Positions 5,952 to 27,637 of a stretch of DNA of 29,616 nt are shown here, one piece after another (within the stretch, counting starts at the first letter, position 1; the number at the start of each line of letters is the position of its first letter). The translations under genes were made by a program, and so were the position numbers. The stretch comes from a virus: positions 1 to 29,616 of the IMG/VR virus record IMGVR_UViG_3300042516_003430, one strand, 5' to 3'. The notes below the pieces were generated by a model. The model saw only the letters and a list, made by a program, of their open reading frames with translations. It made no database searches and was not told where the DNA came from.

Positions 5952-7358
5952 TTACCAATCCCAGACATTTTTCGTTTTGAATAATTCATTATAAGCACCT
6001 GCTGCCGCATCGACCTGGTCGTCGTTTTTGCCTGTCGGAAACTGCCGCAGCTCATCGACGAATGCCGCGTTCCATGGTTGTCGAACCAGTGCCACATTTC
6101 CTGCGTTTACCTGGCTCGCCAGACCATCGGCTCGCAACTCTTTCGACCCTGTTTCCCTGACTGCTTTTATATTGTATCCCCCGAATAATCTGATGAAATT
6201 CAGTGCTGCGTCCTTGCCTGCGCTGCCAGGATCCTCAGGAACGACAATGCGGACCTGCTGACCGTCTGCCTGCGCCACCTGCTGCATCACTGCGTTTCTC
6301 TGGTCGGACGCCCACTGTCCCCGAATGACGTCGAGAATGTAGATGCGACCTGCTGCGTCCTTGCCTAGTTTCACGCCAGCTGTCCAGTCGCCCTTGCCAC
6401 TGCTGGCGGCGACGTCCCATTTCCTGACCAGCTCGACCATCGGCGGCACGTCTGCTGCATCGATGTACGCGAATCGGTCGACCTTGAAAATGGCGCCTTC
6501 TCTGATGCTCGGACGTCCCTGAAATAGCGCCTGAAAATTGTATTCGCCCATCTGCTGGCGGACTTGCTCGAGGAATGACAGCGGCTTCACTTCCTGCCAC
6601 AGTGCCTCGCCAGGTTGTCGACCGAGTGCATCGTTTTCCTCGGCGATTGCTGGCAGATTGATAAACGTCCAGCTGCTGTCTGCTTGATCCTGCAGCCGTC
6701 CGATTAGATCGTCGTGATGCCACCGTGTAGCGATGACGAATGCTTTGGTACGCGGATAAAATCGCTGAACGATGCTTCCCTGCCACCAGTCCCAGATGTT
6801 TCCTCGCTCGATGGCTGATTCCGCCTGCGCTCGGTCCTTGATGGGATCATCGCACACCAGCAGCGAAATCGGATTGATTCCCGTCGGTGCGCTGCCGACT
6901 CCTCTGGCGACCAACCTGGCGCCGTTTGTAAGTCGCCATGTACTCATCGCATTCGAGGACTGGTCGAGGATTCCCAGTTCAGCTGCCATCTCACGCGCTG
7001 GTCTGCTTAGTTCACGGTCGGCAAAATCCTGCGAGTAACCAGTGAAAACGATTGCGTCTTTTGGATGCCGCTGCGCCCAGTACACTGGCAGTCTGGTCGT
7101 AATGGTCTGGCTCTTTCCATGTCCTGGCGGCATGCTGATGGCGACGTTCTGCAGCTCGCCCTTGATGACCTTGTCTGCGATGTCGCACAGATACCTGATG
7201 TGTTTTGGGAACGCATAGTCTGCAGGTTTACGCAGCTGATACCACTGGCTGAATGTCAGATTATGCTGCTCAATCGCCAGTCGCAGTTCCAGTTCACGTC
7301 TGCTTAATTTGTTCAATTCGTTTGAGTTCAGCGACCATTTCCTCCATCGACATGCCAT
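5952..7358 (-). CDS. terL: Terminase large subunit
   Basis: The 468-residue protein has a Walker A motif MPPGHGKS at residues 76-83, Walker B LLVCDD at 166-171 and a coupling motif ATRWHHDD at 210-217. The RNase H-like nuclease half follows, with acidic residues at KWDVAASSGKGDW (D315), VPEDPGSAGKD (D376) and NDDQVDAA (D447/D450). It translocates DNA into the prohead and cuts packaged DNA. The listed ATG gives a 65-base overlap with the small subunit; a TTG at codon 15 (inside NELNK) is an alternative start that would reduce the overlap. Protein similarity should settle this, because conserved sequence seems to begin near residue 16. Confidence 0.95.
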   Translation of the reverse strand: MACRWRKWSLNSNELNKLSRRELELRLAIEQHNLTFSQWYQLRKPADYAFPKHIRYLCDIADKVIKGELQNVAISMPPGHGKSQTITTRLPVYWAQRHPKDAIVFTGYSQDFADRELSRPAREMAAELGILDQSSNAMSTWRLTNGARLVARGVGSAPTGINPISLLVCDDPIKDRAQAESAIERGNIWDWWQGSIVQRFYPRTKAFVIATRWHHDDLIGRLQDQADSSWTFINLPAIAEENDALGRQPGEALWQEVKPLSFLEQVRQQMGEYNFQALFQGRPSIREGAIFKVDRFAYIDAADVPPMVELVRKWDVAASSGKGDWTAGVKLGKDAAGRIYILDVIRGQWASDQRNAVMQQVAQADGQQVRIVVPEDPGSAGKDAALNFIRLFGGYNIKAVRETGSKELRADGLASQVNAGNVALVRQPWNAAFVDELRQFPTGKNDDQVDAAAGAYNELFKTKNVWDW

Positions 7359-9231: not shown

Positions 9232-9483
9232 TCAGCGATGGTTTCGGTCGCTCATGAGTGTCTCGACATGCGCTGCCAATTTCGCCAGATGCGTTTCGGT
9301 TCGATGTACTAGCGCTTTCATGTCGACGTGATCCGCCTCAATTTGATTCAGTTTCTGCTGCATTTTTCCCATGTGGAAAATTCCTGCAATCATAGGAATC
9401 AGCCATGCCCAGAATGACGAGAGCGCGCTGCTCAGTGCCGAAATGGTTTCGACGCCTTGCTGCTGGCTTTCTGGCGCTGGCAT
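9232..9483 (-). CDS. Membrane-anchored coiled-coil protein, holin- or spanin-like
   Basis: The protein has 83 residues from the chosen start (MPAPESQQQGVET). One hydrophobic helix, FWAWLIPMIAGIFHM, lies at about residues 25-40 and is followed by a heptad-like helix MQQKLNQIEADHVDMKALVHRTETHLAKLAAHVETL. An N-terminal membrane helix followed by coiled coil resembles inner-membrane spanins or some holins, and it is adjacent to the amidase. The start at 9483 is preferred over an ATG 18 bases upstream because a strong GGAGG lies eight bases before it and because it shares a base with the amidase stop (TAATG). I call it a lysis-cassette protein; which class is uncertain. Confidence 0.6.
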   Translation of the reverse strand: MPAPESQQQGVETISALSSALSSFWAWLIPMIAGIFHMGKMQQKLNQIEADHVDMKALVHRTETHLAKLAAHVETLMSDRNHR

Positions 9484-10028
9484 TACTTTAGCCTCCGACA
9501 TAGACCTGCCCAGAATTTTAGACGCACGTTTCGGTCCCGAATGACGGATCTGTCGTGTGGGTTGTCCAGAAATCCGATTTCAGCGAGACATGCTGGTGGT
9601 CCAAAGTCCAAAACAGCCAGACGAGAATGCTGGCTTTCCGACTCACGTTTTAGACCTCTGGATTTCAGACCTGTCGCCTCGACCAGGCTGTCCAGAACCA
9701 GCTGCGCGAACGCCCTGTCAGAACTGTCTCGATAGTAGACCTCGACGCCAGTGGCTTTCCCATCAGCGGCATTACAGTGAATCGAGAGAAAATGTGTGCA
9801 GTGCGCAGCTGTTGCCATGTCGTCGCGGCGACCGACAGGAACCTCGTCGAGATTATCGTCTCTGGTGAGAAAATGATTGATGCCATACTGCGGCAGAATG
9901 TACTTTCCTGTCAGCGCCCACTCGAGCGCGATGTCGGCTTCTCTGACACCAGCTGCGATTGCGCCTGGATCAAACACATCATCGCGTTTATTTGACATGC
10001 CGTGTCCAGGATCAATAGCCAGTTTCAT
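9483..10028 (-). CDS. N-acetylmuramoyl-L-alanine amidase, endolysin (Amidase_3)
   Basis: The 181-residue protein has the Amidase_3 fold signature: DPGHG (H9), a zinc-binding glutamate in GVREADIALEW (E30), FLSIHCNA (H84) and the catalytic glutamate in CLAEIGFLDN (E150). It cleaves the amide bond between N-acetylmuramic acid and the stem peptide to lyse the host. The start at 10028 is preferred over an upstream one at 10088, because the family begins at MKLAIDPGHG and a GAGGT site lies just upstream. There is no signal peptide or separate cell-wall-binding domain, so release should require a holin. Confidence 0.93.
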   Translation of the reverse strand: MKLAIDPGHGMSNKRDDVFDPGAIAAGVREADIALEWALTGKYILPQYGINHFLTRDDNLDEVPVGRRDDMATAAHCTHFLSIHCNAADGKATGVEVYYRDSSDRAFAQLVLDSLVEATGLKSRGLKRESESQHSRLAVLDFGPPACLAEIGFLDNPHDRSVIRDRNVRLKFWAGLCRRLK

Positions 10029-14495: not shown

Positions 14496-15142
14496 TTCTT
14501 AGTCAGCACCGAATGAGCAAATAGCGCGATGTCCTCGATGTTCAGGCAACCGTCAGCCAGTGCATGATGGACCAGCTCGAAAACGTCTTGACCCTTAGCG
14601 ACAGCCAGCTCGCGCAGCTGTGTAAATTGAGCGTTAGTGCCGCCCATTTCCTGCCAGCGAGTTTTGACCGAATTTCTCATGACTGCTCTAGCGTCCTCGA
14701 CCGTCACTTTCGTGGGTGCTGGTGGCTTGGCTGCTGTCTTCGCAGGACCATCCGCATCGGTGTCTGTGTCGTCGACTATGGGAATCATCAGATATTTCAG
14801 CAGCGCGTATTTTGTGCAGCTGGTGATGGCCTTTTGAATGCCTTTGTCGTCGTTTCCTTTTGACTCGCCGAACCACACGAATTCGTCGCGCTGATCGGAT
14901 TCAGTGTCGCGCACCGTGAATGCCATCTCGACCAGGACGTGCTGTCCATCGTGCGTCACGTTCCTGACCGTCGGTGTGATTTGGACACCATGCTCGACGC
15001 ATGCGTTTCGGACAGCTGGCAGGACGTCGTCCCAGGCTTGAAATTTGAATTTGAAATGCTGGTTCAATCCGTTTTTCTCGACTGCACCTATGGACCTGCT
15101 CACTGCCAGTACTTTCGCTGCGAGTGTTAATGGCTTAGTCAT
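14492..15142 (-). CDS. erf: ERF-family single-strand annealing protein
   Basis: This 216-residue protein matches ERF annealases: AVSRSIGAVEKNGLNQHFKF, FQAWDDVLPAVRNACVEHGV, PTVRNV, VEMAFTVRDTES, and the strongly conserved GESKGNDDKGIQKAITSCTK followed by YALLKYLMIPIVDDTD. It pairs complementary single strands to repair or circularise phage DNA. After a Pro/Ala linker (about residues 130-145) the C terminus holds a helical domain. Its start follows a 24-bp repeat that also begins the gene at 15139-15339. ATGA overlaps link it to both neighbours. Confidence 0.92.
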   Translation of the reverse strand: MTKPLTLAAKVLAVSRSIGAVEKNGLNQHFKFKFQAWDDVLPAVRNACVEHGVQITPTVRNVTHDGQHVLVEMAFTVRDTESDQRDEFVWFGESKGNDDKGIQKAITSCTKYALLKYLMIPIVDDTDTDADGPAKTAAKPPAPTKVTVEDARAVMRNSVKTRWQEMGGTNAQFTQLRELAVAKGQDVFELVHHALADGCLNIEDIALFAHSVLTKK

Positions 15143-15154
15143 TTGTCCACCACC
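15131..15154. repeat. 24-bp direct repeat, copy 1 (gene-junction duplication)
   Basis: This 24-bp sequence is identical to 15328-15351 and spans the end of one gene and the start of the next: VVDK stop plus MTKP. The two copies are 197 bases apart and bracket the AT-rich gene at 15139-15339. It looks like a duplicated gene junction left by insertion or recombination at short homology. Confidence 0.85.
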
Positions 15155-15339
15155 TCTTGTTCGCTCTCGTGTTTTGTTCGCTTGCTATACAATGTCATAA
15201 TTTCCATTTTCCCTTCTTCAAAAGCCCAATGGGAAAACCATGAAGCTATCTCAAGCGTAGTCCAATTTTTTCTAACCATTTCATCCAATTGTTCTCTTAT
15301 GAACTTGTCATCATAAGCTCTTGGGTTTGGCTTAGTCAT
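15139..15339 (-). CDS. Inserted small gene of unknown function
   Basis: A 66-residue protein that starts MTKPNPRAYDDKFIREQLDE and ends HESEQEVVDK, mostly helical (WTTLEIASWFSHWAFEEGKM). The start at 15339 is preferred over one eight codons earlier because it makes the ATGA overlap used throughout the operon. The DNA is clearly AT-richer than either neighbour and lacks the TCGA-rich pattern. Both ends match each other through the 24-bp repeat, so the gene appears to have been inserted between the Gam-like and annealase genes. Function unknown. Confidence 0.7.
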   Translation of the reverse strand: MTKPNPRAYDDKFIREQLDEMVRKNWTTLEIASWFSHWAFEEGKMEIMTLYSKRTKHESEQEVVDK

Positions 15340-15351
15340 TTGTCCACCACC
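15328..15351. repeat. 24-bp direct repeat, copy 2 (gene-junction duplication)
   Basis: Second copy of the repeat at 15131-15154, spanning the stop of the Gam-like gene and the start of the inserted gene. It carries the same VVDK/MTKP junction. Confidence 0.85.
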
Positions 15352-15887
15352 ACAATGTCGCATTTTTCGACGTCCGATGTGACCTCAAAACCCTCTGGTT
15401 TCTGCTCGATCAGCATGGTGCGCTGCAGCTCTGTCAGACGCGAAATCTGAAACTCCTCTGTGGTCTTGATGGCCTCGACCCAGCCATGCTGGTGCGCCAG
15501 TGCGAGTGCTGCGTTCTTGTCGATCACTTTCAATCCGCCGCGTACCGTCCTGAATTTGACCTTCCCAAATGGAGTGTCAAGAGTTTTGGATTTCTGACCT
15601 GTTAGGCGACCCTGTGCAAATGCCTCGATGTGTGCGCCGTAGAGATCCCGCAGGTAGTCGACGTGCGACTGCAGCCGCTTTTCCTGCCGCTTGCAGTTGT
15701 CGAGAATGAACGCATGGTGCTGCTGCATGGCTGCCAGCGCATGCTCGGTCCTGCCGATGCGCTCTAGCGCCGCCTCCAGCGCAGTCTGCGATGTAATGCC
15801 GTCGTGGCTGATTGCCTCGCATAGGATCTCTCCAGTGGCTGTTTCGACGACGTTGTTGTCAATGATGGTGTATGTTCGTTCGCTCAT
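15336..15887 (-). CDS. Gam/Gp157-like nuclease-inhibitor family protein
   Basis: The 183-residue protein has a long helical region (about residues 35-100) with a coiled-coil look (HHAFILDNCKRQEKRLQSHV), then the turn GQKSKTLDTPFGKVKFR and a strand-rich tail with GLKVIDKNAALALAHQHG. A helical hairpin followed by K-T-x-x-T-P-F-G/K is the pattern of siphovirus Gp157 and Mu Gam host-nuclease inhibitors, which shield linear DNA ends from RecBCD-type nucleases. The C-terminal EGFEVTSDVEKCDIVVVDK is typical of the end of Gp157-like proteins. It abuts the regulator stop and leads the recombination block. Confidence 0.7.
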   Translation of the reverse strand: MSERTYTIIDNNVVETATGEILCEAISHDGITSQTALEAALERIGRTEHALAAMQQHHAFILDNCKRQEKRLQSHVDYLRDLYGAHIEAFAQGRLTGQKSKTLDTPFGKVKFRTVRGGLKVIDKNAALALAHQHGWVEAIKTTEEFQISRLTELQRTMLIEQKPEGFEVTSDVEKCDIVVVDK

Positions 15888-16073
15888 TTACTTTTTCCCT
15901 TTCTGTCCTGGCATCTTGCCTGTTCTGATGAAATGTTCTGCTCGGTATCGCAGACCCTGGGGACTTAGTCCCGCCTCTTTCGCGATGCGAGAAAATGGTC
16001 GCAGGTTTCGCTGAATAATCAGCCACTGCGCCGCTTCCTCCACCAGCTCGTTTATGGTTTTTGTGTTAGCCAT
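15888..16073 (-). CDS. Small helix-turn-helix protein, candidate regulator
   Basis: The protein has 61 residues from the chosen start, MANTKTINELVEEAAQW, with a likely HTH of FSRIAKEAGLSPQGLRYRAE and a basic tail KMPGQKGKK. It is the first gene of the leftward unit and is next to the only large control region, so it may bind the operator at 16100-16124 or be a DNA-binding replication accessory. An earlier ATG at 16091 would extend it by six codons, but the -10 box lies there. With the start at 16073 the mRNA would begin at or within one base of the ATG. Its function as repressor or activator is not proven. Confidence 0.6.
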   Translation of the reverse strand: MANTKTINELVEEAAQWLIIQRNLRPFSRIAKEAGLSPQGLRYRAEHFIRTGKMPGQKGKK

Positions 16074-16080
16074 CCACCAT

Positions 16081-16109
16081 AGTATACACATTTTCTCAGA
16101 TTGTATAAA
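16081..16109 (-). promoter_or_regulatory. Leftward promoter for the main operon
   Basis: On the minus strand a TATACT -10 box (16086-16081) lies 17 bases from TTTATA (16109-16104), a four-of-six match to TTGACA. Transcription would begin at about 16074, right at the ATG at 16073. The -35 box lies inside the 25-bp palindrome. Confidence 0.5.
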
Positions 16110-16124
16110 AACTTTTTCTACAAT
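16100..16124. promoter_or_regulatory. 25-bp near-perfect palindrome, candidate operator
   Basis: Arms ATTGTATAAAAA (16100-16111) and TTTTTCTACAAT (16113-16124) are inverted with one mismatch and a single C between them. The site covers the -35 box of the leftward promoter, a good position for repression by a phage regulator. Confidence 0.6.
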
Positions 16125-16178
16125 CGTCTGGGACTTTAGACCTATATCACACTTATATATATGAATTGTTTTCTCCGA

Positions 16179-16209
16179 TTGACAAAAACATTTTCTCCAT
16201 GTGTATAAT
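16179..16209 (+). promoter_or_regulatory. Rightward early promoter
   Basis: TTGACA (16179-16184) and TATAAT (16204-16209) are both perfect consensus boxes, separated by 19 bases, longer than the usual 17. Transcription would begin at about 16216, 28 bases before the first + gene. TTTTCTCC repeats surround it (16169-16176 and 16192-16199), and TTATACACA on the minus strand (16208-16200) overlaps the -10 box, so binding there could regulate it. Confidence 0.65.
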
Positions 16210-16243
16210 AGAGTTTGTCGGCACGGAGTCGACACGGAATCAC

Positions 16244-16621
16244 ATGACACACTACGATCTCGCAACTGGAAACCCAACACCAGAATTTCTCATTGAACTC
16301 GCCAAAATGCTCGGCGGCAGACCCTGGGCGAACCACGGCAAATTCCGCGTGTACTTTGACGAAGGCCGCAAAACCCAGGTCTATTTGAACTTTGAAGATG
16401 GTTGGTCGCTCAACATCTGGCTTGAACCATGCGGACAGACAGCGAAATGGTACGCGAATCGGAAACGCGATCTGCAGCAGCAGTACACTCGACATATCCG
16501 AATCGCTGTCGGCAGCCATCACTACGGCGAACCTGTCACTGCCTACTCAACAGAAACCAATGCGGATTTCGAGAAAATGGTTTCGGAATTTGCTGCTCTG
16601 CTCGATGGAGTCGCGGCATGA
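16244..16621 (+). CDS. Early protein of unknown function (first + gene)
   Basis: The product has 125 residues from the chosen start (MTHYDLATGNPTPEF). An earlier in-frame ATG at 16166 lies upstream of the promoter, so the later start is chosen; a GGA-type ribosome site precedes it. Segments are GGRPWANHGKFRVYFDEGRK, TQVYLNFEDGWSLNIWLEPC and FEKMVSEFAALLDGVAA. Beta-rich middle with helix at the end; no family recognised. It leads a four-gene coupled operon and overlaps the next gene by ATGA. Leading early genes of small phages often target host defence or transcription; that is inference. Confidence 0.65.
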   Translation: MTHYDLATGNPTPEFLIELAKMLGGRPWANHGKFRVYFDEGRKTQVYLNFEDGWSLNIWLEPCGQTAKWYANRKRDLQQQYTRHIRIAVGSHHYGEPVTAYSTETNADFEKMVSEFAALLDGVAA

Positions 16622-16971
16622 CTGAACTCCTCATCGCTTCCATCAGACTGTCGATGTCTCAGCTGCTCATTGAATGCGACCTCGATGGCTGCGCCTGCTA
16701 TGATGGCGACTGGCAAAATCCACCAGAAACCTGCGATGCGTGCTGGGCGATTAATGAATTCAGACACATCATTAAATGGTACACAGATGCCTCGCACGAC
16801 CTGGACGCATGTGACCTCGACAGCTGCATGGCTGTCGTCGAATCGCATTTCATCCCTGAATGGTTTAGCACCTATTCCACCGACATGGCTGCACACAAGC
16901 TGGATGAAACCCAGCGGACCGTGCTGTTCGTCTATGACATCTTGCCTATCCTCTCGGACTACATCAAATGA
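16618..16971 (+). CDS. Early cysteine-rich acidic protein
   Basis: The 117-residue protein starts MTELLIASIRLSMSQLLIE and has ECDLDGCACYDGDWQNPP, ETCDACW, and later DLDACDLDSCMAV: a dense run of cysteine and aspartate. The spacing C-x5-C-x-C then C-x2-C suggests a metal site. The C-terminal helix holds VLFVYDILPILSDYI. The start is chosen for ATGA overlap with the previous gene (a longer upstream form at 16429 is a shadow of that gene). It overlaps the next gene by ATGA. No family recognised. Its negative charge raises the possibility of a DNA-mimic or a metal-binding inhibitor, untested. Confidence 0.65.
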   Translation: MTELLIASIRLSMSQLLIECDLDGCACYDGDWQNPPETCDACWAINEFRHIIKWYTDASHDLDACDLDSCMAVVESHFIPEWFSTYSTDMAAHKLDETQRTVLFVYDILPILSDYIK

Positions 16972-17351
16972 ATACTAAACTCTACGCGCACATCACGCGC
17001 ACCAAAACCTCGACCACCGTCACTGCCTCGACATTCAGCACCAGCTCGACTGCGCAGGTCCTGCCAATTACTGGCTTTGCCACCTCACTGCTGGCTGCAC
17101 ACTATGTCGCGCTGTTTCTCAAGCAGCACGATGTGCCTGACCTGACTCAATTCTATCTGACGAACTGTGTCAACTATGCGGCAGCATATGACTCGATTGT
17201 TCACTGCGTCGAGATTTATGAAGCGCACGGCAAAAACAATTTGCTGCCGATTTCGGACGTCGTGCAGTTCATGTATAACTGGACCAATGACACGCTGACC
17301 GACCTGCTGCCACACATCGCACCTGCCCTTGAAACCTCTGGAGTTAACTAA
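16968..17351 (+). CDS. Early protein of unknown function
   Basis: The 127-residue protein begins MNTKLYAHITRTKTSTTVTA with a Ser/Thr-rich first 35 residues, then LAAHYVALFLKQHDVPDLTQ and a helical C-terminal half (FMYNWTNDTLTDLLPHIAPA). A Ser/Thr-rich start followed by helices does not match a family that I know. It is joined by ATGA to the preceding gene and ends one base before the last gene of the operon. Confidence 0.6.
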   Translation: MNTKLYAHITRTKTSTTVTASTFSTSSTAQVLPITGFATSLLAAHYVALFLKQHDVPDLTQFYLTNCVNYAAAYDSIVHCVEIYEAHGKNNLLPISDVVQFMYNWTNDTLTDLLPHIAPALETSGVN

Positions 17352-17352
17352 A

Positions 17353-17589
17353 ATGAAATCAGACTATAGCCACAAACTCAGCGACGTCGTCCTCTCGCAA
17401 GACGAAATCGATCGCATCGAAAACCTCACCGAAACCCAGCGACAGCAAATGAATTCAGACATGCTGCAGCTGCTCGCACGTTCCAAATCCCTGTCGACCA
17501 TTAAGTCGCACGACATGGACTGGCTTGGCGCCTGCTCGATGGTCCTGCTGGCTGTCCTGGTGTTCCTGGCTGCCTACCTGCTGCGCTGA
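17353..17589 (+). CDS. Early tail-anchored membrane protein
   Basis: A 78-residue protein that begins MKSDYSHKLSDVVLSQDEID, is charged and helical up to about residue 50, and ends with one membrane helix CSMVLLAVLVFLAAYLLR. It is therefore a C-tail-anchored membrane protein with the body in the cytoplasm. The start is chosen for a GGAG ribosome site nine bases upstream of the ATG; an earlier ATG at 17329 overlaps the previous gene. Superinfection exclusion or membrane-attached counter-defence is a reasonable guess; no family recognised. A terminator hairpin lies 25 bases after the stop. Confidence 0.65.
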   Translation: MKSDYSHKLSDVVLSQDEIDRIENLTETQRQQMNSDMLQLLARSKSLSTIKSHDMDWLGACSMVLLAVLVFLAAYLLR

Positions 17590-17610: not shown

Positions 17611-17646
17611 AAATAGCCCCCTATAATGGGGGCTTTTGTGGTTTTT
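17611..17646. terminator. Bidirectional intrinsic terminator
   Basis: A 7-bp GC-rich hairpin, AGCCCCC (17615-17621) and GGGGGCT (17628-17634) with a TATAAT loop, is followed by TTTT and a second T run. On the minus strand the same hairpin is followed by TATTTTATG. It lies between the end of the + operon and the end of the last leftward gene, so it can stop both converging transcription units. Confidence 0.85.
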
Positions 17647-17657
17647 AGGATGCCCGT

Positions 17658-18104
17658 TTACAAATTTTCGTCTGCTGGCTGCTCGATGTCTGCTGGCTTT
17701 CCAAATCCTGCAGCGATGAAATCGACGACTGATTTGGTCTGCTTGGCTGTCAATTCCAGCGACTGTCGGTGTGGCATCGTCTGACCGATGCGGCTTTTTT
17801 GGTCGTCATAAAATGGCTGCACCGTCGCTACTGACGCGAAAATCTTTTCATCGACGAACTGCCAATTCACTGCTATGACCTCTCGATTCGTGGCGATCGC
17901 TTTTCCGAATAGCTTTTTCACAAATGCCAGAATGTTTTCGATGTACTCCATCGGCAGCACAAATGTCTCGACATACTCACCCTCATTTCCAGTGCCGATG
18001 ACGTTTAATTTTTCGTCGACGACCAGGTCAATTTTGCGGATGAGTAGATGATTTTCAGCAGCTGGCTGAAAGATGATTTCGCATGTTTTTGTGATGATTT
18101 CCAT
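17658..18104 (-). CDS. Unknown protein at the end of the leftward operon
   Basis: The 148-residue protein starts MEIITKTCEIIFQPAAENHL and contains VETFVLPMEYIENILAFVKK, and ELTAKQTKSVVDFIAAGFGKP near the C terminus. It is the last gene before the terminator and directly abuts the fibre-tip gene, so it may be a fibre assembly or tail accessory protein. It has alternating strands then helices. No recognised family; a tail-fibre chaperone is only one possibility. Confidence 0.55.
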   Translation of the reverse strand: MEIITKTCEIIFQPAAENHLLIRKIDLVVDEKLNVIGTGNEGEYVETFVLPMEYIENILAFVKKLFGKAIATNREVIAVNWQFVDEKIFASVATVQPFYDDQKSRIGQTMPHRQSLELTAKQTKSVVDFIAAGFGKPADIEQPADENL

Positions 18105-18653
18105 TTATGCCACCTGATATTGAAACCCGCCAGACAACCGTGCGTTATTGCCTGAGAATATCGCTGCAGTAAGGCTCCCTGCGCCTCCATTTAATAACTG
18201 AAGACTCATAATTGCCTCGGTAGATGCTAGAATCCTCACCGCAATACTACCACTGTTTGTCGAAATGGTAAAACCTTCCGCCATCAAAACAGGTCGATAA
18301 TTGATTCCAGACGCTAGTGCCTGCCCCGCAAATGGTAGATTCAAAAGGATACATTCACCAGTTGTCGTGCCTGTTGTCGCGCCAGATAGCTGCAGCGCAA
18401 ATTCGACGAAAACCATTTTGCCGACTCTGACGTATCTGCCAACAGTTTCTGTGGCATTCACACTGAATGTCGCCAGGTTGTTTGATGACCTGACACCTGG
18501 TGTCCAGGTCGATTCCTCGTAATAGTTGAGCGTGCCTGTGCCAGACCCGAATTTAATGCCAGACGAAAATGTCTGCAGCGCTGTGAATGTGTTCGCTGTC
18601 GCTGCGTTGAAATTGATTGTCGGAATGACATCGACGCCGTTTAGATCAAACAT
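18105..18653 (-). CDS. Tail-fibre tip-like protein
   Basis: The 182-residue protein contains the phage fibre-tip layout ESTWTPGVRSS, GRYVRVGKMVFVEFALQL and ILLNLPF, which occurs near the ends of tail fibres and spikes (W-T-P, then Y-x-x-x-G, then LPF). The N-terminal part, FTALQTFSSGIKFGSG, looks like the usual repetitive coiled collar. It should be involved in receptor binding. The start shares a base with the upstream stop (TGATG). It is similar in module order to the 154-residue gene at 19005-19469, suggesting duplication. Confidence 0.7.
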   Translation of the reverse strand: MFDLNGVDVIPTINFNAATANTFTALQTFSSGIKFGSGTGTLNYYEESTWTPGVRSSNNLATFSVNATETVGRYVRVGKMVFVEFALQLSGATTGTTTGECILLNLPFAGQALASGINYRPVLMAEGFTISTNSGSIAVRILASTEAIMSLQLLNGGAGSLTAAIFSGNNARLSGGFQYQVA

Positions 18654-19004: not shown

Positions 19005-19469
19005 TTATAACTCTGCCGTAAAATACGTCAGGCTGCCGACTATGTCGAAATTGCTGCTGTTACCGACCACACTGACCTGCACGAAATTATTATTGTGAAT
19101 AATGCGCAACACTGAACCTGGCGACCATGCGACAATGCTGTCAACTGAATCGGTAGTTGAGCTTGCAGCTCCGATGGCGCATGGTTTAGTGCCTGAGAAA
19201 TTTGACACCACTGGAAACGGCAGATCCCCAATCAGCAGATTTCCGCTCTCGCCGTTGGTGTTATGCGCAGTTCCCTTGAAAACGAAATTGATGTGGCAGA
19301 CATTCCCAATTTTTTGATAATAGCCAGATCGCTGGATGACAGCAAAATCCAACACCCCGCCATCAGATGTCAATGTCGGTGTCCATGCGCCCTCACTTGG
19401 GCTGATCGGTTTTGTGGTCTGAATCAGCTGGCTGAATCCGCCATCGATGGTCTTGTTCACTGTCGCCAT
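19005..19469 (-). CDS. Tail-fibre tip-like protein, paralogue
   Basis: The 154-residue protein begins MATVNKTIDGGFSQLIQTTK and has EGAWTPTLTSDGG, then GYYQKIGNVCHINFVFKG, and LLIGDLPFPVVSNFSG. The G/W-T-P-T-L start, the Y-x-K-I-G-N step and the LPF end are the classic fibre-tip module, also present in the 182-residue gene at 18105-18653. It follows the giant tail gene with 28 bases between and probably provides or presents the receptor-binding tip. Confidence 0.7.
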   Translation of the reverse strand: MATVNKTIDGGFSQLIQTTKPISPSEGAWTPTLTSDGGVLDFAVIQRSGYYQKIGNVCHINFVFKGTAHNTNGESGNLLIGDLPFPVVSNFSGTKPCAIGAASSTTDSVDSIVAWSPGSVLRIIHNNNFVQVSVVGNSSNFDIVGSLTYFTAEL

Positions 19470-19497: not shown

Positions 19498-22400
19498 TCA
19501 GCTGAATGTGATGCCATCGTCGGACGTGCGCTGCGTCAGGCTGCCTGACTCGACATCAATCAGGACCAGCCGCCGATTGCCGCCGTTCGTCACATCCTCG
19601 TCCACTGCGATGCATTCGTCGTCGACACCTGATGCGACTGCTGTCACCGATGCCTGCAGCACCGTGTCTGCTCGGTCTGTTATTTGTCCCTTGATGGATG
19701 CGCCATCGATCCAGTAGATGTATCGATTTCCGTCCCTGCCGATAATGAATGTGGGCTTGACGCCGTTTGCAATAGTTCTCATAAGTGTAAATGTCTCGTT
19801 TAACGCAGCTGCTGAATACAGCTTGATTGACTTGTTGATTTCGACGACTAGGTAAATTTTCTGATCTGTTGACTGCCTGTCGATTCTGATGGCGCAGCTC
19901 GTCGCAGACAGTGCCAGCGTGTTCACTGTGGAAAATGCCAGACCGTTGTCAGACTTGCGGATCAGGACGTTTCCTGAGTTATCCACATAGGCTGCAGCAT
20001 GGACGTTCGATGCGAAGTCGATGTCGAGAGACAACCTGCATCTGGCGGACCTGAGCAGACAAAACCAGCCATGCCATGGTCGCGCCTTCGCATAGATGTC
20101 GCCGCTCGAGACGATGCGCCAGTCGGTTTCTGTGTTGTCCAGAACTGGATTAAACTGCCAGATGTACCAGCCAGATGGTGGCACAGCGACAGCTGACCCT
20201 GAATCCGCAGCTGCTGGTGTCTGGAGTTTTGCTGCTGCTGACGCGTTGGAAATCAGGTAGCGACCGTCCTGAACATGGTCGTACACTACCTGCGCGTAGC
20301 TGCCTGTTGCGGACCAGTCGGTCGTCAGTCGTTTCTTATATGGAAATGCTGCCAACGGCGGAATCTCGCTGAATGAGTTAATTAGTGCCAGCCTGAAATC
20401 GTCGTTCGTTCCCTTAGGCAAAACGTAGCTGTTCGAGAACTTGTCGGCGACTGCGATTGACTGACCTTCGTACGAATCATAAAGACTCGACAGGTCAGTC
20501 GTGATGGTCGATGCCAGACTCGCGCCGCCATTTCCCTGCACCACTCGGTATTTGAATGCCAGCGCGTCGACGATGGTATTCGGTGTTCCCATACCTGTGA
20601 CTAGAGGCGGATCCTGGAAACCCAGAATCGGCGAATACCAGGTCAGATTCCCCCAGCGATGGTTCGGTCCATCCGCCCACAGCATGGATGCCGCCCTGCT
20701 GTTTTCCCAGTAGACCAGCGGATGTGTCGCCTCAAGATTGAACGTCGGAAAATTGATGGTGACAGGATTCGCAGGATTCGTCGGCGTAATTCTGAATCTT
20801 AATTTCGCGAACTGGCGACCTTTCCCCAGCTGAAACCCGACGACCGTCTCTGGATTCGACATATACGCGCTGCTGACACCAGACGCCAGCTGGTCGACAC
20901 CTGTGTCTGTGATGGCGCTGATAATTGAATACCCGTTATCAATCGCCCATGTGCCAGAGTATTTCAGCTGAATTCCTGTCGGCAAGTCGTACGTTCCTGG
21001 CGCGGATGCAATGTAATTTGTGGCATTGTCCTGACCATAGAATGAAACCTCGATTCTCGAGACGTTCGTCGTGGACCATGCCAGAATGACCTGCTTTGCT
21101 TTGGTCAGCAGCATGAATGGATCCGCCGTCCACTGCGCCATGTCTAGCTCGATGTAAGTGTTCGACCCCGTGAAACCTGTGACGACGATGTTCGCGCCGA
21201 GTGTCACTGTGCAATCGTTCGCAGTCCAGACGCCTGGTCTGCTCGTCGAGAGTGTGATGCTGCTCGGCTGCGTCATGGTCAGCACCTTGAATCTGCTACT
21301 GCCTATCCACCTGAAGCCACCGAAAAACGCATCAAGAAATGGCTGATTTCCGTTATCAATTTCTAGCACCGAGGAAATCTGGCTGTTTCTGGTCCTCGGA
21401 TTCGACGGCAGCGCGGCATTGTACAGCCACTGCTCTTTTATTGGTCCCCAATAATCCTCCCATGGCTGCGATGCGCCGTCGACATCCCAGTCTGCTCGAT
21501 GGTATGCCAGATTCCAGTGCGGATTCACCCAGCTGCCTGTATAGCGCATCAGCATGTCGGCGTGTCCCTGATAGCCAGCCAGCGTGTCGACACTCGACGG
21601 AAATGTGATGGCGATGCCCTCAGACTCGTTCAGGTTAGTATCGGTCGGCGCAATGTTGGTGCAGGTCCATGACAGCACCTCGCCCTCTGGACAGCTCGGA
21701 ATCGGCACCGACGGCGGCGGACATAGACAAACCGTATATCCTTCGTAGCTCCAGGTCTTGCTGTAGCTTTTGCCTTTTGACCAGTTCGCCTGAGTGTAGA
21801 TGGTCGCTGGAAATGCATCCTCGACATCAGACGTCGCGTTTGTCACGACTTCAAGGAAATCAGGTCCAAGATCCGCATAGACAACCTGCGACCCGCCAGT
21901 GTTCACTGTGACCGCACCGACTGTGCAGTTTCTTGTCGCCGACCCTCTGACCTCTGGAAAATCAAAACGTCGCCACAATGCTTTGTAGTCTGTGTTCCAC
22001 CTGACGATGGCGCGCTCTAGATTCGGTATCGCTCTGGCTGCGCCGCCGTGGCTTTCGCTCCAGCTTTCGACATAATACGCGTCGATGTAGCCGTCGTCGT
22101 ATTCGTCTGTGCAAGGATCGAGACAGTAACCCTGCACGATTTCGTCGTATACAATGGTTCCGCCGTCCTCGCCGACACACTCACCGACGACTCGCTGCAT
22201 CAGTGCGCGTCTGCCGTCATAGGTTCGCTCTGTCTTGCTGTAGGACCTTGTCGAAATGATAATGCTGTCGGTGTCCTCGACCGAGATTTCGTCGTCAAAT
22301 TCCAAGTTATAGGGACAACTGCCAGACGTCGGAATGCTGGCTGTCCAGACCTCGCATGGCAGAACCGTCCAGACGTTGTTTTCGTCCTGAAATCGCCAGC

Positions 22401-22986
22401 CAGCAGTGATGGTCTGGTTCGCCTCTGCCTCTGTCACATATTCCATCGCGCCAGGATCGCAGGGATCGTATGCGCTCGGCGTGTATACCTTTGATGCGCT
22501 GCAGCTGCCCGTTGCGTACAATGGTGTGGCGAGATAGTCGATGTAATTTGGTCCAACGCCGTTGGATGTAACGTCGACGCCGCCCAGTGTCGTCGACAGC
22601 ACACCATTCACATAGACCTGCAGCGACGTCCAGGTCGTTCGATAGAGACTGCCTGTGAGTTTGGTGTAGATTTTTAGACCGAGAATGCGAACCTTGATTG
22701 TGACTGTGGACAGAAATGCTGCAGCTCCGACGACGTAGCCACCGAATGGCGCGCCAGGACCGTCATATTTCACTTGCCATGCGACCGTACCTGCACCATC
22801 GTCGCTCGAGGAAACCTCCAGGTATATACCTGTATTTACATTTATCGCATTCGGCACATACTGCGTCTGAGCATTCGCAGTGTGCGATTTTGCCAGCGTC
22901 CCGCTGCCGCTGCCTGTCGCTGAAACCGTCGACTCCAGCTTGTACTCGATAGCATCGGTCGCAAAAATTAAACCGTTATTTGGCAT
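19498..22986 (-). CDS. Large tail protein, cysteine-rich, probable tail-tip or fibre base
   Basis: The longest gene codes for 1162 residues. It begins MPNNGLIFATDAIEYKLEST and has beta-rich repeats with GNVNTGIYLEVSS-like segments. Between residues 162 and 442 there are twelve cysteines, including GYCLDPC and YTVCLC, unusual for a phage structural protein. The C-terminal third contains LDIDFASNVHAAAYVDNSGN, SDNGLAFSTVNTLALSATS and GRDGNRYIYWIDGASIKGQ, which look like repeated blades of a beta-propeller or sialidase-like fold. Position between hub and fibre genes suggests the tail-tip. It overlaps the 66-residue gene by 11 bases. Confidence 0.7.
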   Translation of the reverse strand: MPNNGLIFATDAIEYKLESTVSATGSGSGTLAKSHTANAQTQYVPNAINVNTGIYLEVSSSDDGAGTVAWQVKYDGPGAPFGGYVVGAAAFLSTVTIKVRILGLKIYTKLTGSLYRTTWTSLQVYVNGVLSTTLGGVDVTSNGVGPNYIDYLATPLYATGSCSASKVYTPSAYDPCDPGAMEYVTEAEANQTITAGWRFQDENNVWTVLPCEVWTASIPTSGSCPYNLEFDDEISVEDTDSIIISTRSYSKTERTYDGRRALMQRVVGECVGEDGGTIVYDEIVQGYCLDPCTDEYDDGYIDAYYVESWSESHGGAARAIPNLERAIVRWNTDYKALWRRFDFPEVRGSATRNCTVGAVTVNTGGSQVVYADLGPDFLEVVTNATSDVEDAFPATIYTQANWSKGKSYSKTWSYEGYTVCLCPPPSVPIPSCPEGEVLSWTCTNIAPTDTNLNESEGIAITFPSSVDTLAGYQGHADMLMRYTGSWVNPHWNLAYHRADWDVDGASQPWEDYWGPIKEQWLYNAALPSNPRTRNSQISSVLEIDNGNQPFLDAFFGGFRWIGSSRFKVLTMTQPSSITLSTSRPGVWTANDCTVTLGANIVVTGFTGSNTYIELDMAQWTADPFMLLTKAKQVILAWSTTNVSRIEVSFYGQDNATNYIASAPGTYDLPTGIQLKYSGTWAIDNGYSIISAITDTGVDQLASGVSSAYMSNPETVVGFQLGKGRQFAKLRFRITPTNPANPVTINFPTFNLEATHPLVYWENSRAASMLWADGPNHRWGNLTWYSPILGFQDPPLVTGMGTPNTIVDALAFKYRVVQGNGGASLASTITTDLSSLYDSYEGQSIAVADKFSNSYVLPKGTNDDFRLALINSFSEIPPLAAFPYKKRLTTDWSATGSYAQVVYDHVQDGRYLISNASAAAKLQTPAAADSGSAVAVPPSGWYIWQFNPVLDNTETDWRIVSSGDIYAKARPWHGWFCLLRSARCRLSLDIDFASNVHAAAYVDNSGNVLIRKSDNGLAFSTVNTLALSATSCAIRIDRQSTDQKIYLVVEINKSIKLYSAAALNETFTLMRTIANGVKPTFIIGRDGNRYIYWIDGASIKGQITDRADTVLQASVTAVASGVDDECIAVDEDVTNGGNRRLVLIDVESGSLTQRTSDDGITFS

Positions 22987-25509: not shown

Positions 25510-27056
25510 TACACTTCCCGCCTGCTGACGTTATAGCCGATGTTTTTCGCTGAGACATTCACCATGTTACGCTCGATGGCATAACCTAGCTCGACCAGCA
25601 GTGACTTGATTTCCTGAGTGCCAGACCGACGCCTCCCTGCCAGCCCTTGCATTTCCTCGCGACTTAACCCTCTTGATGCCAGACCGCCGCCGCCAAGGAC
25701 TCGGTCGTTTATGTCCGCCATCTTTTTAGTATTGTCATTCGTTCCTGCACTGCTGTCTGCGATGTTTTTCAGCAGGTCCTTGACCGACTCGCCTGGAGTC
25801 GCAACCCCTGTCGGTGCTTCAGCAGTTTTCCCTAAGTTTTCCCCAGCTGCAGCGTCTGCGGCGTCCTTGGCTTTTCTGGCTGACAGTTCAGCTCGTTTCT
25901 GTGCGATAAAATCCGATGCTGCTGTCTGACCGTACGCCTCGCCGAGAAATTTGTCGATGCCAAGTGTTTTCCCAATGAATCCCAGATGCGCCCTCAGCAG
26001 CTTAATCCCTGGGAACATTTCCGCGATCGATAAAATTCCCTCGCCGAATGCAATCATCCCGTCATAGAAATTTTTCAGGTACTGACCCAGCCCAACAAAT
26101 GCGCCAGCCACATTTAGTAGGTATTCCTCGACGTCCAGCGTCGCATTTGGAATGCCCTGCAGAGTGCCGACGAATGATTTCACCGCGTCGCCAAAAACGT
26201 TCACCTTCGTCAGGTTTTCCATCGCGCTCGCCAGCGTTTCAAAAACTGGGACCACATAGTCAATCAGCGACAGACCAATTTGTCGCATAACCCTGTTGAA
26301 GGAGTCGCCCAGCGACGCCAGCTTTGCCATCGGACCACTCGCCATTTCCTCCGCCAATTTCCCGAATTTGGCATTCACGACGACCTCAATCGCAGTGAGT
26401 GCCTGGTCGACCGTTCCTTGGAATGACCCACCCTTGTCGAACTTCAGACCCTGCGCAGCCAGCGCTTCTCTAGAAATGCCACCTCTCGCCAGCGACTCGA
26501 AACCCTCGCCGAATCGACCCGACTTGATATAGCCGAGCGCCGAGACGAATGAATTCAATGACTCCGCATTCCCGCCGAAAACCGTTCCCAATTTTTCCGC
26601 AATCGGCAGGAATCGCTCGGTGCTAAGTCCGAATGCCTCGAGCAGCTTCGCCGACTCGCCAAGTGTGGCTGTGTCGAACACCGACGGAATCGCGAGTTTG
26701 TCGATGAATGAAAGAATCTGACCTGTCCGCTCGCCACTGCCTGTGATGGCTGTCAGTGATCGCTGCAATGTGTCGAACTGTGTCGCCGTCTCGAGTGCCG
26801 CTTTTCCGCCAAGAACCAATGGGACAGCGATTGCAGCCACAGCCCCGACAGCTGCTCCGATGGTCCCTGTCACCAGCTGCGCACCTTCGCCGAGTTTCTT
26901 GAGCATTCCACCGCTTGAGTGCGCCGATGCGCCTGATTTCTTGACAGCCTTGTCAGCGTCAGCCGATGCCGCGGCGACCTTTTTCGCGCCGTCCTCGAAA
27001 CCCTTGGAATTCAAGACATACTGCGACTCGACTATTTCGACTGTGACTTTTGACAT
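25509..27056 (-). CDS. Tape measure protein
   Basis: The 515-residue protein has the usual TMP features: a helical, Ala/Lys-rich start (KKVAAASADADKAVKKSG), a hydrophobic segment with GAAVGAVAAIAVPLVLGG near residues 65-83, and the conserved FDTLQRSLTAITGSGERTGQ followed by KLAIPSVFDTATLGESAKLL and FGLSTERFLPIAEKL. It sets tail length; at about 0.15 nm per residue it predicts roughly 75-80 nm, a short siphovirus tail. The start lies three bases after the frameshift gene stop, with an AGGA site upstream. Confidence 0.9.
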   Translation of the reverse strand: MSKVTVEIVESQYVLNSKGFEDGAKKVAAASADADKAVKKSGASAHSSGGMLKKLGEGAQLVTGTIGAAVGAVAAIAVPLVLGGKAALETATQFDTLQRSLTAITGSGERTGQILSFIDKLAIPSVFDTATLGESAKLLEAFGLSTERFLPIAEKLGTVFGGNAESLNSFVSALGYIKSGRFGEGFESLARGGISREALAAQGLKFDKGGSFQGTVDQALTAIEVVVNAKFGKLAEEMASGPMAKLASLGDSFNRVMRQIGLSLIDYVVPVFETLASAMENLTKVNVFGDAVKSFVGTLQGIPNATLDVEEYLLNVAGAFVGLGQYLKNFYDGMIAFGEGILSIAEMFPGIKLLRAHLGFIGKTLGIDKFLGEAYGQTAASDFIAQKRAELSARKAKDAADAAAGENLGKTAEAPTGVATPGESVKDLLKNIADSSAGTNDNTKKMADINDRVLGGGGLASRGLSREEMQGLAGRRRSGTQEIKSLLVELGYAIERNMVNVSAKNIGYNVSRREV

Positions 27057-27059
27057 GGT

Positions 27060-27637
27060 TTATCCTACGATTATGACTTGCTGCGGCGATGGCGGCTGAA
27101 CCTCGTTCAGTGCCAGAATTTGCAGGACGCGATACTGGTGATGCGAGTCCAGGTCGTCGAACCATTGTCCATAGACATCGACCGCGACCCTGCATTTGGC
27201 GGCATAGTCGCGATTCAGCTCAAGTCTTTTTTTTCGTCTACGAATACCGCGAACTCGCTGGTCTTGTTAGCAGCTGCAGCATCGAGCGCCGCGATGGTAC
27301 CAGCGAACACTGGTGCTGCTCGTTTTGCCAGAGTCAGCCATGCCAGCTCGTTCTGGAATTCCTCGTCCAGCGACAGCATGGCGAGCATTTTCGCCTGTGC
27401 CAGAATGCCTGCATTTGATGTCGCGACGTCTTTCCAATTTGGCAGCACAGCGCCCTCGGAAATCTGTTTCGACATTTGTTTTGCCCAGCGCGTGACCTCG
27501 TTTTCAATGCGAATTCGTTCCTCCATGTCGATCAGGATTTTGAACCGCAGCTTCACGCCCTCGACGACTGTCACCTCCACAGTGTCACTGACTGGCGCCG
27601 ATGTCTCGAGAATCTTATTCAGCAGCTCGCCGACCAT
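27060..27637 (-). CDS. Tail assembly chaperone frameshift product (G-T)
   Basis: The zero-frame product runs to 27215, but a -1 shift at A AAA AAA (27233-27227) adds 55 codons to an in-frame stop at 27060 and yields a 192-residue fusion. After the shift the frame continues R-L-E-L-N-R-D and later QWFDDLDSHHQYRVLQILAL, closing with QQVIIVG, three bases before the tape measure ATG. This is the G/GT arrangement of lambda-like tails. Both products are needed in a fixed ratio to chaperone the tape measure. Coordinates cover the shifted product. Confidence 0.85.
27181..27234 (-). other. Programmed -1 frameshift signal
   Basis: A run of eight A bases (27234-27227, minus strand) includes the slippery heptamer A AAA AAA in the correct phase. 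After a 12-base spacer an 8-bp stem can form: ATCGCGAC (27214-27207) pairs with GTCGCGGT (27188-27181), with one U-G pair and an 18-base loop. The spacer is longer than the usual 5-9 bases. Confidence 0.8.
27215..27637 (-). CDS. Tail assembly chaperone, zero-frame product (G)
   Basis: The unshifted product has 140 residues: MVGELLNKILETSAPVSDTV, FKILIDMEERIRIENEVTRW, ILAQAKMLAMLSLDEEFQNE and a C terminus FAVFVDEKKDLS. It is acidic-helical and of the usual size for a gpG-type chaperone, placed between major tail protein and tape measure. The ATG shares a base with the stop of the 42-residue gene (TAATG at 27637). Most ribosomes stop at 27215; a minority shift at the A run to make the longer form listed separately. 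Confidence 0.85.
   Translation of the reverse strand: MVGELLNKILETSAPVSDTVEVTVVEGVKLRFKILIDMEERIRIENEVTRWAKQMSKQISEGAVLPNWKDVATSNAGILAQAKMLAMLSLDEEFQNELAWLTLAKRAAPVFAGTIAALDAAAANKTSEFAVFVDEKKDLS

Follow-up and report, generated by a model that had tools for sequence, protein, structure and literature searches.

A rightward four-gene operon with conserved control elements and exchangeable genes in a siphovirus-like phage: a possible early host-interaction locus

The operon and its place in the genome

The window, that is the whole stretch of DNA analysed here, is an IMG/VR record of 29,616 bases which, judged by its gene content, represents a siphovirus-like tailed phage of about 30 kb. Recognised head, tail and lysis genes code for the small and large terminase subunits, portal, protease, major capsid protein, tape measure protein and an amidase, while an early block codes for Gam-like, Erf-like, SSB, RusA-like and replication-initiation proteins (the SSB being assigned from its own sequence and a search). 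All recognised structural, lysis and early-block genes are found on the - strand. End repeats were looked for and none were found, and we take the record to be an approximately full, circularly permuted genome because IMG/VR relatives open at different points of the same gene circle. In an attempt at host assignment, the large terminase subunit (TerL) was found to be 47% identical to that of Microcystis phages, while portal and capsid point elsewhere.

Four genes (g1 to g4, Table 1) form an operon on the + strand at positions 16244–17589, flanked by the tail genes, which end at 17658, and by the early leftward block, which starts at 16073. The genes are tightly coupled, as proposed in an earlier reading of the same DNA (the sequence-only reading): g1/g2 and g2/g3 overlap by ATGA and a single base separates g3 from g4. 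For comparison we used six genomes, the window and the five relatives from IMG/VR in which the site is covered (L002, L003, L004, L005 and L012). The operon occupies the identical place in all five relatives and the gene order is kept in each of them, with g1 itself present in four and replaced in one. All four genes are under purifying selection (dN/dS 0.04–0.63, mostly <0.35, with synonymous change near saturation in many of the comparisons), and their dN/dS values give no sign of positive selection. Conserved order together with dN/dS well below 1 indicates that these are real genes and not chance ORFs, so that the proposed four-gene operon is borne out. Its G+C content is 51–55%, compared with 52.8% for the genome.

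The operon had also been described as the only rightward unit of the genome. Five other long + strand ORFs were checked, and all are antisense to conserved genes, four of the five being interrupted by stops in at least one relative. The weakest case, ORF 22048–22494, is stop-free in four relatives but lies antisense to a conserved gene of 1162 aa. As the tested ORFs are antisense to conserved genes and mostly stop-broken, the description stands.

Table 1. Genes and control elements of the locus, in window coordinates
Feature	Position	Strand	Remarks
HTH-like protein, 61 aa	15888-16073	-	opens the divergent leftward block (recombination/replication)
Divergent promoter-like site TTTATA-N17-TATACT	16081-16109	-	9/12 matches, weak; early leftward genes
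Direct repeat (26 nt), copy 1	16091-16116	+	includes half of the palindrome
Palindrome GATTGTATAAAAA-C-TTTTTCTACAATC	16099-16125		overlaps -35 region of divergent promoter; putative operator
Conserved box TGGGACTTTAGACC	16129-16142	+	invariant in 6 genomes; between the two divergent promoters
Direct repeat, copy 2	16169-16194	+	77% match; covers -35 box of operon promoter
Operon promoter TTGACA-N19-TATAAT	16179-16209	+	same spacing in 6/6 genomes
5'-terminal mRNA hairpin (predicted) TGTCGGC-ACGGA-GTCGACA	16216-16234	+	
g1	16244-16621	+	125 aa
g2	16618-16971	+	117 aa
g3	16968-17351	+	127 aa
g4	17353-17589	+	78 aa
Intrinsic terminator, hairpin and T-run	17615-17634	+	terminator-like on the - strand too

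Promoter, leader, terminator and the divergent control region

The operon possesses a sigma-70-type promoter of its own, and a terminator stands between it and the late genes. The -35 box (16179–16184) and the -10 box (16204–16209) match the consensus at 12 of 12 positions, with a spacer one or two bases above the ideal length; boxes and spacer are unchanged in all six genomes. This is the sole match of at least 11/12 in the window, and none of 20 shuffled windows contained a 12/12 site, which confirms the consensus promoter claimed previously. The hairpin predicted at the 5' end of the mRNA is not exceptional in the window by its energy alone (z -1.3). A hairpin is nevertheless kept in all six genomes, across both leader types, as L004 and L005, whose leader sequence differs, form another hairpin in the corresponding position. 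The terminator, which ends both the operon and the convergent genes, is likewise kept in all six genomes; in two of seven pairs both sides of its stem have changed with pairing preserved at 100%. That the operon has its own terminator, as the sequence-only reading held, is thus supported by a stem that covaries among relatives.

On the other side of the promoter, the gene for a small HTH-like protein is kept in the six genomes. The assignment is based on how its sequence looks, together with a weak match to an AsnC-type HTH (E 0.087); family scans of this gene, and of the convergent gene downstream of the operon, gave nothing credible. Ten TerL-bearing fragments from this phage group, all of them shorter and incomplete, showed neither g4 nor the HTH-like gene. 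The HTH-like gene and the palindrome suggest coupled control of both directions. In the simplest reading, one regulator, presumably the HTH-like protein, would act on both promoters. The invariant TGGGACTTTAGACC between them resembles GGGACT-type response-regulator boxes in appearance. The idea that HTH protein and palindrome change together was dropped, as L012 combines an L003-type palindrome with a largely window-type HTH protein.

The four proteins and the exchange of genes between relatives

None of the four proteins matches a family in Pfam, PHROGs, NCBIfam or PADLOC, and searches of PDB profiles gave chance matches only, in line with the earlier statement that they belong to no recognised family. 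Weak Pfam matches (E 0.02–0.05) were discarded as sub-cut-off and mutually inconsistent. Matches to known structural proteins were also looked for, and none were found for the operon genes. A tblastn search of g1 and g2 against 50,697 phages gave no match, and g1 and TerL revealed no prophage-like relative among 84,980 bacterial and archaeal species genomes, a search with a reach of close relatives only. The structure-based search proposed in the sequence-only reading was run for g1 and g2 with weak AlphaFold models (pLDDT 51.5 and 66.0, respectively) and gave no Foldseek match at E <= 0.001; many weak matches of g1 were set aside because the models are too weak.

The g1 protein is 82–93% identical in four relatives, with dN/dS of 0.07–0.18. 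No other protein of the window is as acidic as g2 (pI 4.15, net charge -15), and g2 is acidic in all six genomes (pI 4.05–4.49), with invariant cysteines at C25, C27, C39, C42 and C65. The description of g2 as an acidic, Cys-rich protein therefore holds. Its likely metal site, also proposed before, is backed by four candidate ligands conserved in 6/6 genomes (C25, C27, C39 and C42), so that a zinc site is plausible. Strong acidity is common to several DNA-mimic inhibitors; g2, being small and strongly acidic, is similar to these in both respects, and its low-confidence model (pLDDT 66) is all-alpha and without a fold match. In L012 (6001–6384), g2 carries a 10-residue insertion resembling an imperfect tandem duplication (SSDLVAHQLHFSDMAAHQL).

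The Ser/Thr-rich character previously ascribed to g3 is not kept among relatives: 27 of 127 residues are Ser or Thr in the window, compared with about 10%, as read from the alignment, in the second version of the protein (type B, see below). For g4, the N-terminal part of about 49 residues is near-invariant and is followed by a single hydrophobic segment at the C-terminus (Kyte-Doolittle maximum of 2.49 at residue 59), of which two versions occur among relatives. The predicted topology is that of a tail-anchored protein, in agreement with the earlier assignment.

Gene content at this fixed place varies among close relatives. In L012, an unrelated ORF of 159 aa, for which no credible match was found in NCBIfam or PADLOC, stands in place of g1; promoter and leader are undisturbed there, and the ATGA coupling to g2 persists. 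L004 and L005 have an extra ORF between promoter and g1; these are 49 or 57 aa long and unlike each other. A stable GGGCAGG...CCTGCCC hairpin is found between the extra first ORF and g1 in both (L004:4935–4995, L005:3250–3312), and may serve as a processing site or as a partial terminator. Further along the operon, g2 and g3 occur in two types, with type A in the window, L002 and L012 and type B in L003, L004 and L005. Identity between the types is 44–46% for g2 and about 30% for g3, and the types of the two genes are linked, which in six genomes and for adjacent genes would not amount to proof of an interaction. The head and tail genes group the genomes differently (window, L002, L004 and L005 vs L003 and L012), and this discordance implies that the g2/g3 pair has been moved by recombination.

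Thus, genes have been swapped while promoter, leader, divergent regulator and terminator have been retained. We regard the variation of the operon as supportive and not decisive, because other parts of these genomes are also mosaic and variable (replication genes, 15139–15363 and 17658–18104). The last of these is the convergent gene on the - strand, which is about 30% identical in three relatives and unmatched in L012.

Possible functions of the operon

The combination of a host-type promoter, a stabilising leader, an insulating terminator, coupled orphan genes, a dispensable first gene and a recombining gene pair is, in our best reading, the look of an early host-interaction operon. We favour an accessory operon of this type with counter-defence as its likeliest use, although, as read from sequence, this is close to an even call. 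Anti-defence or host takeover had been put forward by the sequence-only reading and is still the best available explanation. It has been strengthened because relatives keep promoter, leader, regulator and terminator while exchanging the genes behind them, the function itself being inferred.

In the proposed course of events, host sigma-70 RNA polymerase would read the operon from its near-consensus promoter soon after DNA entry and without phage factors. Such early timing is what we infer, as nothing in the DNA itself reveals it. The 5' hairpin would stabilise the mRNA, the bidirectional terminator would insulate the operon from the convergent late genes, and the four small proteins would be co-produced through translational coupling. 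Probable binding sites of the 61-aa HTH-like protein are the palindrome and, at the operon's own -35 box, the half-site related to it, through which the protein may shut down or tune both divergent promoters. The acidic, Cys-rich g2 and its neighbour g3 might be cytoplasmic inhibitors, acting together or on related targets, with g4 acting at the membrane. Exchange at this slot (replacement of g1, extra first ORFs, swap of the g2/g3 pair) would be expected for proteins that face changing host targets. More specifically, g2 and g3 could represent a new paired class of counter-defence proteins, a zinc-knuckle acidic helical inhibitor and its co-evolving partner, supplied by a regulated cassette whose conserved promoter, 5' hairpin and terminator would form a landing frame into which a genus of virulent phages takes exchangeable anti-host genes; this we consider a speculative and rather improbable extension.

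Besides the mosaic state of other genome parts and the lack of a positive-selection signal in dN/dS, two observations speak against the host-interaction reading: conservation is high in g1 and in the cytoplasmic portion of g4, as in ordinary core functions, and the searches made revealed no likeness to any known inhibitor. The best of the alternatives is a core regulatory or replication-support operon whose proteins would assist phage DNA replication, recombination or the timing of transcription, the divergent layout being a developmental switch. Its presence in every genome that covers the site, the degree of conservation of g1 and the g4 N-terminus, and its position divergent to the Gam, Erf and SSB genes with shared control elements would all be accounted for. 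It is harder to reconcile with a g1 that is dispensable, as its replacement in L012 indicates, with a divergence of g2/g3 far above that of Gam or SSB, and with family scans in which nucleic-acid enzyme families went unmatched. We regard this explanation as possible, if on the unlikely side.

Superinfection exclusion or immunity, also named in the sequence-only reading, has become less likely. In this case g4 would block DNA entry by related phages from the membrane, which its C-terminal hydrophobic segment would permit, and the remaining genes would have immunity functions, the own promoter and reversed orientation being like those of lysogenic conversion genes. Neither an integrase nor a repressor was recognised among the window proteins examined, however, and bacterial genomes yielded no prophage-like relative of g1 or TerL within the close-relative reach of that search. 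Although exclusion factors occur in virulent phages too, we consider this role improbable, and a link to lysogeny unlikely.

The overlap of g2 and g3 and their joint change of type could be taken to indicate a two-component pair, of toxin-antitoxin or other kind, that serves plasmid-like maintenance or control of the host. This is very unlikely, as adjacency alone explains such linkage in six genomes, no toxin or antitoxin family was matched in the scans, and both proteins are unlike a DNA-binding antitoxin. A lysis or lysis-timing cassette, with the small g4 and its one membrane segment as holin, antiholin or spanin part, is the least probable of all, since the amidase endolysin (9486–10025) and an adjoining hydrophobic protein (9235–9501) lie elsewhere, unlinked to an operon that is insulated from late genes by its terminator, and since g4 is predicted to face the cytoplasm, the reverse of an inner-membrane spanin.

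The host-interaction operon favoured here is reminiscent of several known systems. Morons and lysogenic conversion genes have their own promoter and terminator, lie between conserved modules and vary among relatives. The operon shares each of these features, but differs in comprising four coupled genes at a fixed position in all relatives, with genome-like base composition and no sign of lysogeny. In anti-CRISPR operons, HTH repressors acting on inverted repeats of the promoter are the rule (PMC9410906). Such acr-aca loci and the present one have in common small orphan proteins, a strong promoter, an inverted repeat within the promoter region and a small gene of HTH-like type (PMC9410906). Here, however, the HTH-like gene is encoded on the opposite strand as the first gene of the early block; its own promoter is the site of the full palindrome, the operon -35 box having just a related half-site, and there is no likeness to PDB Aca entries or any PADLOC model. 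We have not filed the locus as acr-aca because its HTH-like gene is outside the operon and no homologue of a CRISPR inhibitor was found for g1 to g4 in PADLOC, Pfam, PHROGs or NCBIfam.

A parallel in layout may be drawn with archaeal viruses, where anti-defence genes have been discovered by way of a conserved strong early regulatory sequence that precedes diverse orphan genes (PMC11065993). In both cases, non-homologous, exchangeable small genes follow a conserved strong promoter region; the locus described here differs by its bacterial sigma-70-type promoter, its single polycistronic operon and in being known from sequence alone (PMC11065993). Anti-defence genes of plasmid leading regions (PMC11541004) are similarly expected to be the first expressed at DNA entry, the difference being that the present genes are those of a phage, without conjugation signals or a known anti-defence homologue.

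It therefore appears that the gene families are new and the type of locus is already known. The locus yields five to seven protein families without recognised homologue behind one constant promoter, these being g1 to g4, the replacement of g1 and the two extra first ORFs. If the anti-host reading is true, the conserved promoter-leader and terminator would provide a handle to fish more anti-host genes from related phages, and swaps of cassette type between sister phages would put directly to the test which host systems are answered by each type.

A scan of IMG/VR with the promoter motif had produced two additional contigs (L030 and L032), which were rejected as they lack credible homology and their number is, by our own estimate, about that expected by chance. 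In L030, an unrelated contig of 45 kb, an intergenic region (6008–6087) contains GGGACTTTAGACC and its inverted counterpart TCTAAAGTCC, spaced by about 70 bp. Elsewhere in the window, a tail-assembly-chaperone-like gene on the - strand (27056–27637) immediately precedes the tape measure gene and has an A8 run at its end (about 27233), beyond which an alternative frame stays open as far as 27056; this arrangement corresponds to the classic type of programmed frameshift site. Two tail-fibre-like genes on the same strand (18105–18653 and 19005–19469) have a common WTP-containing motif and are paralogue-like.
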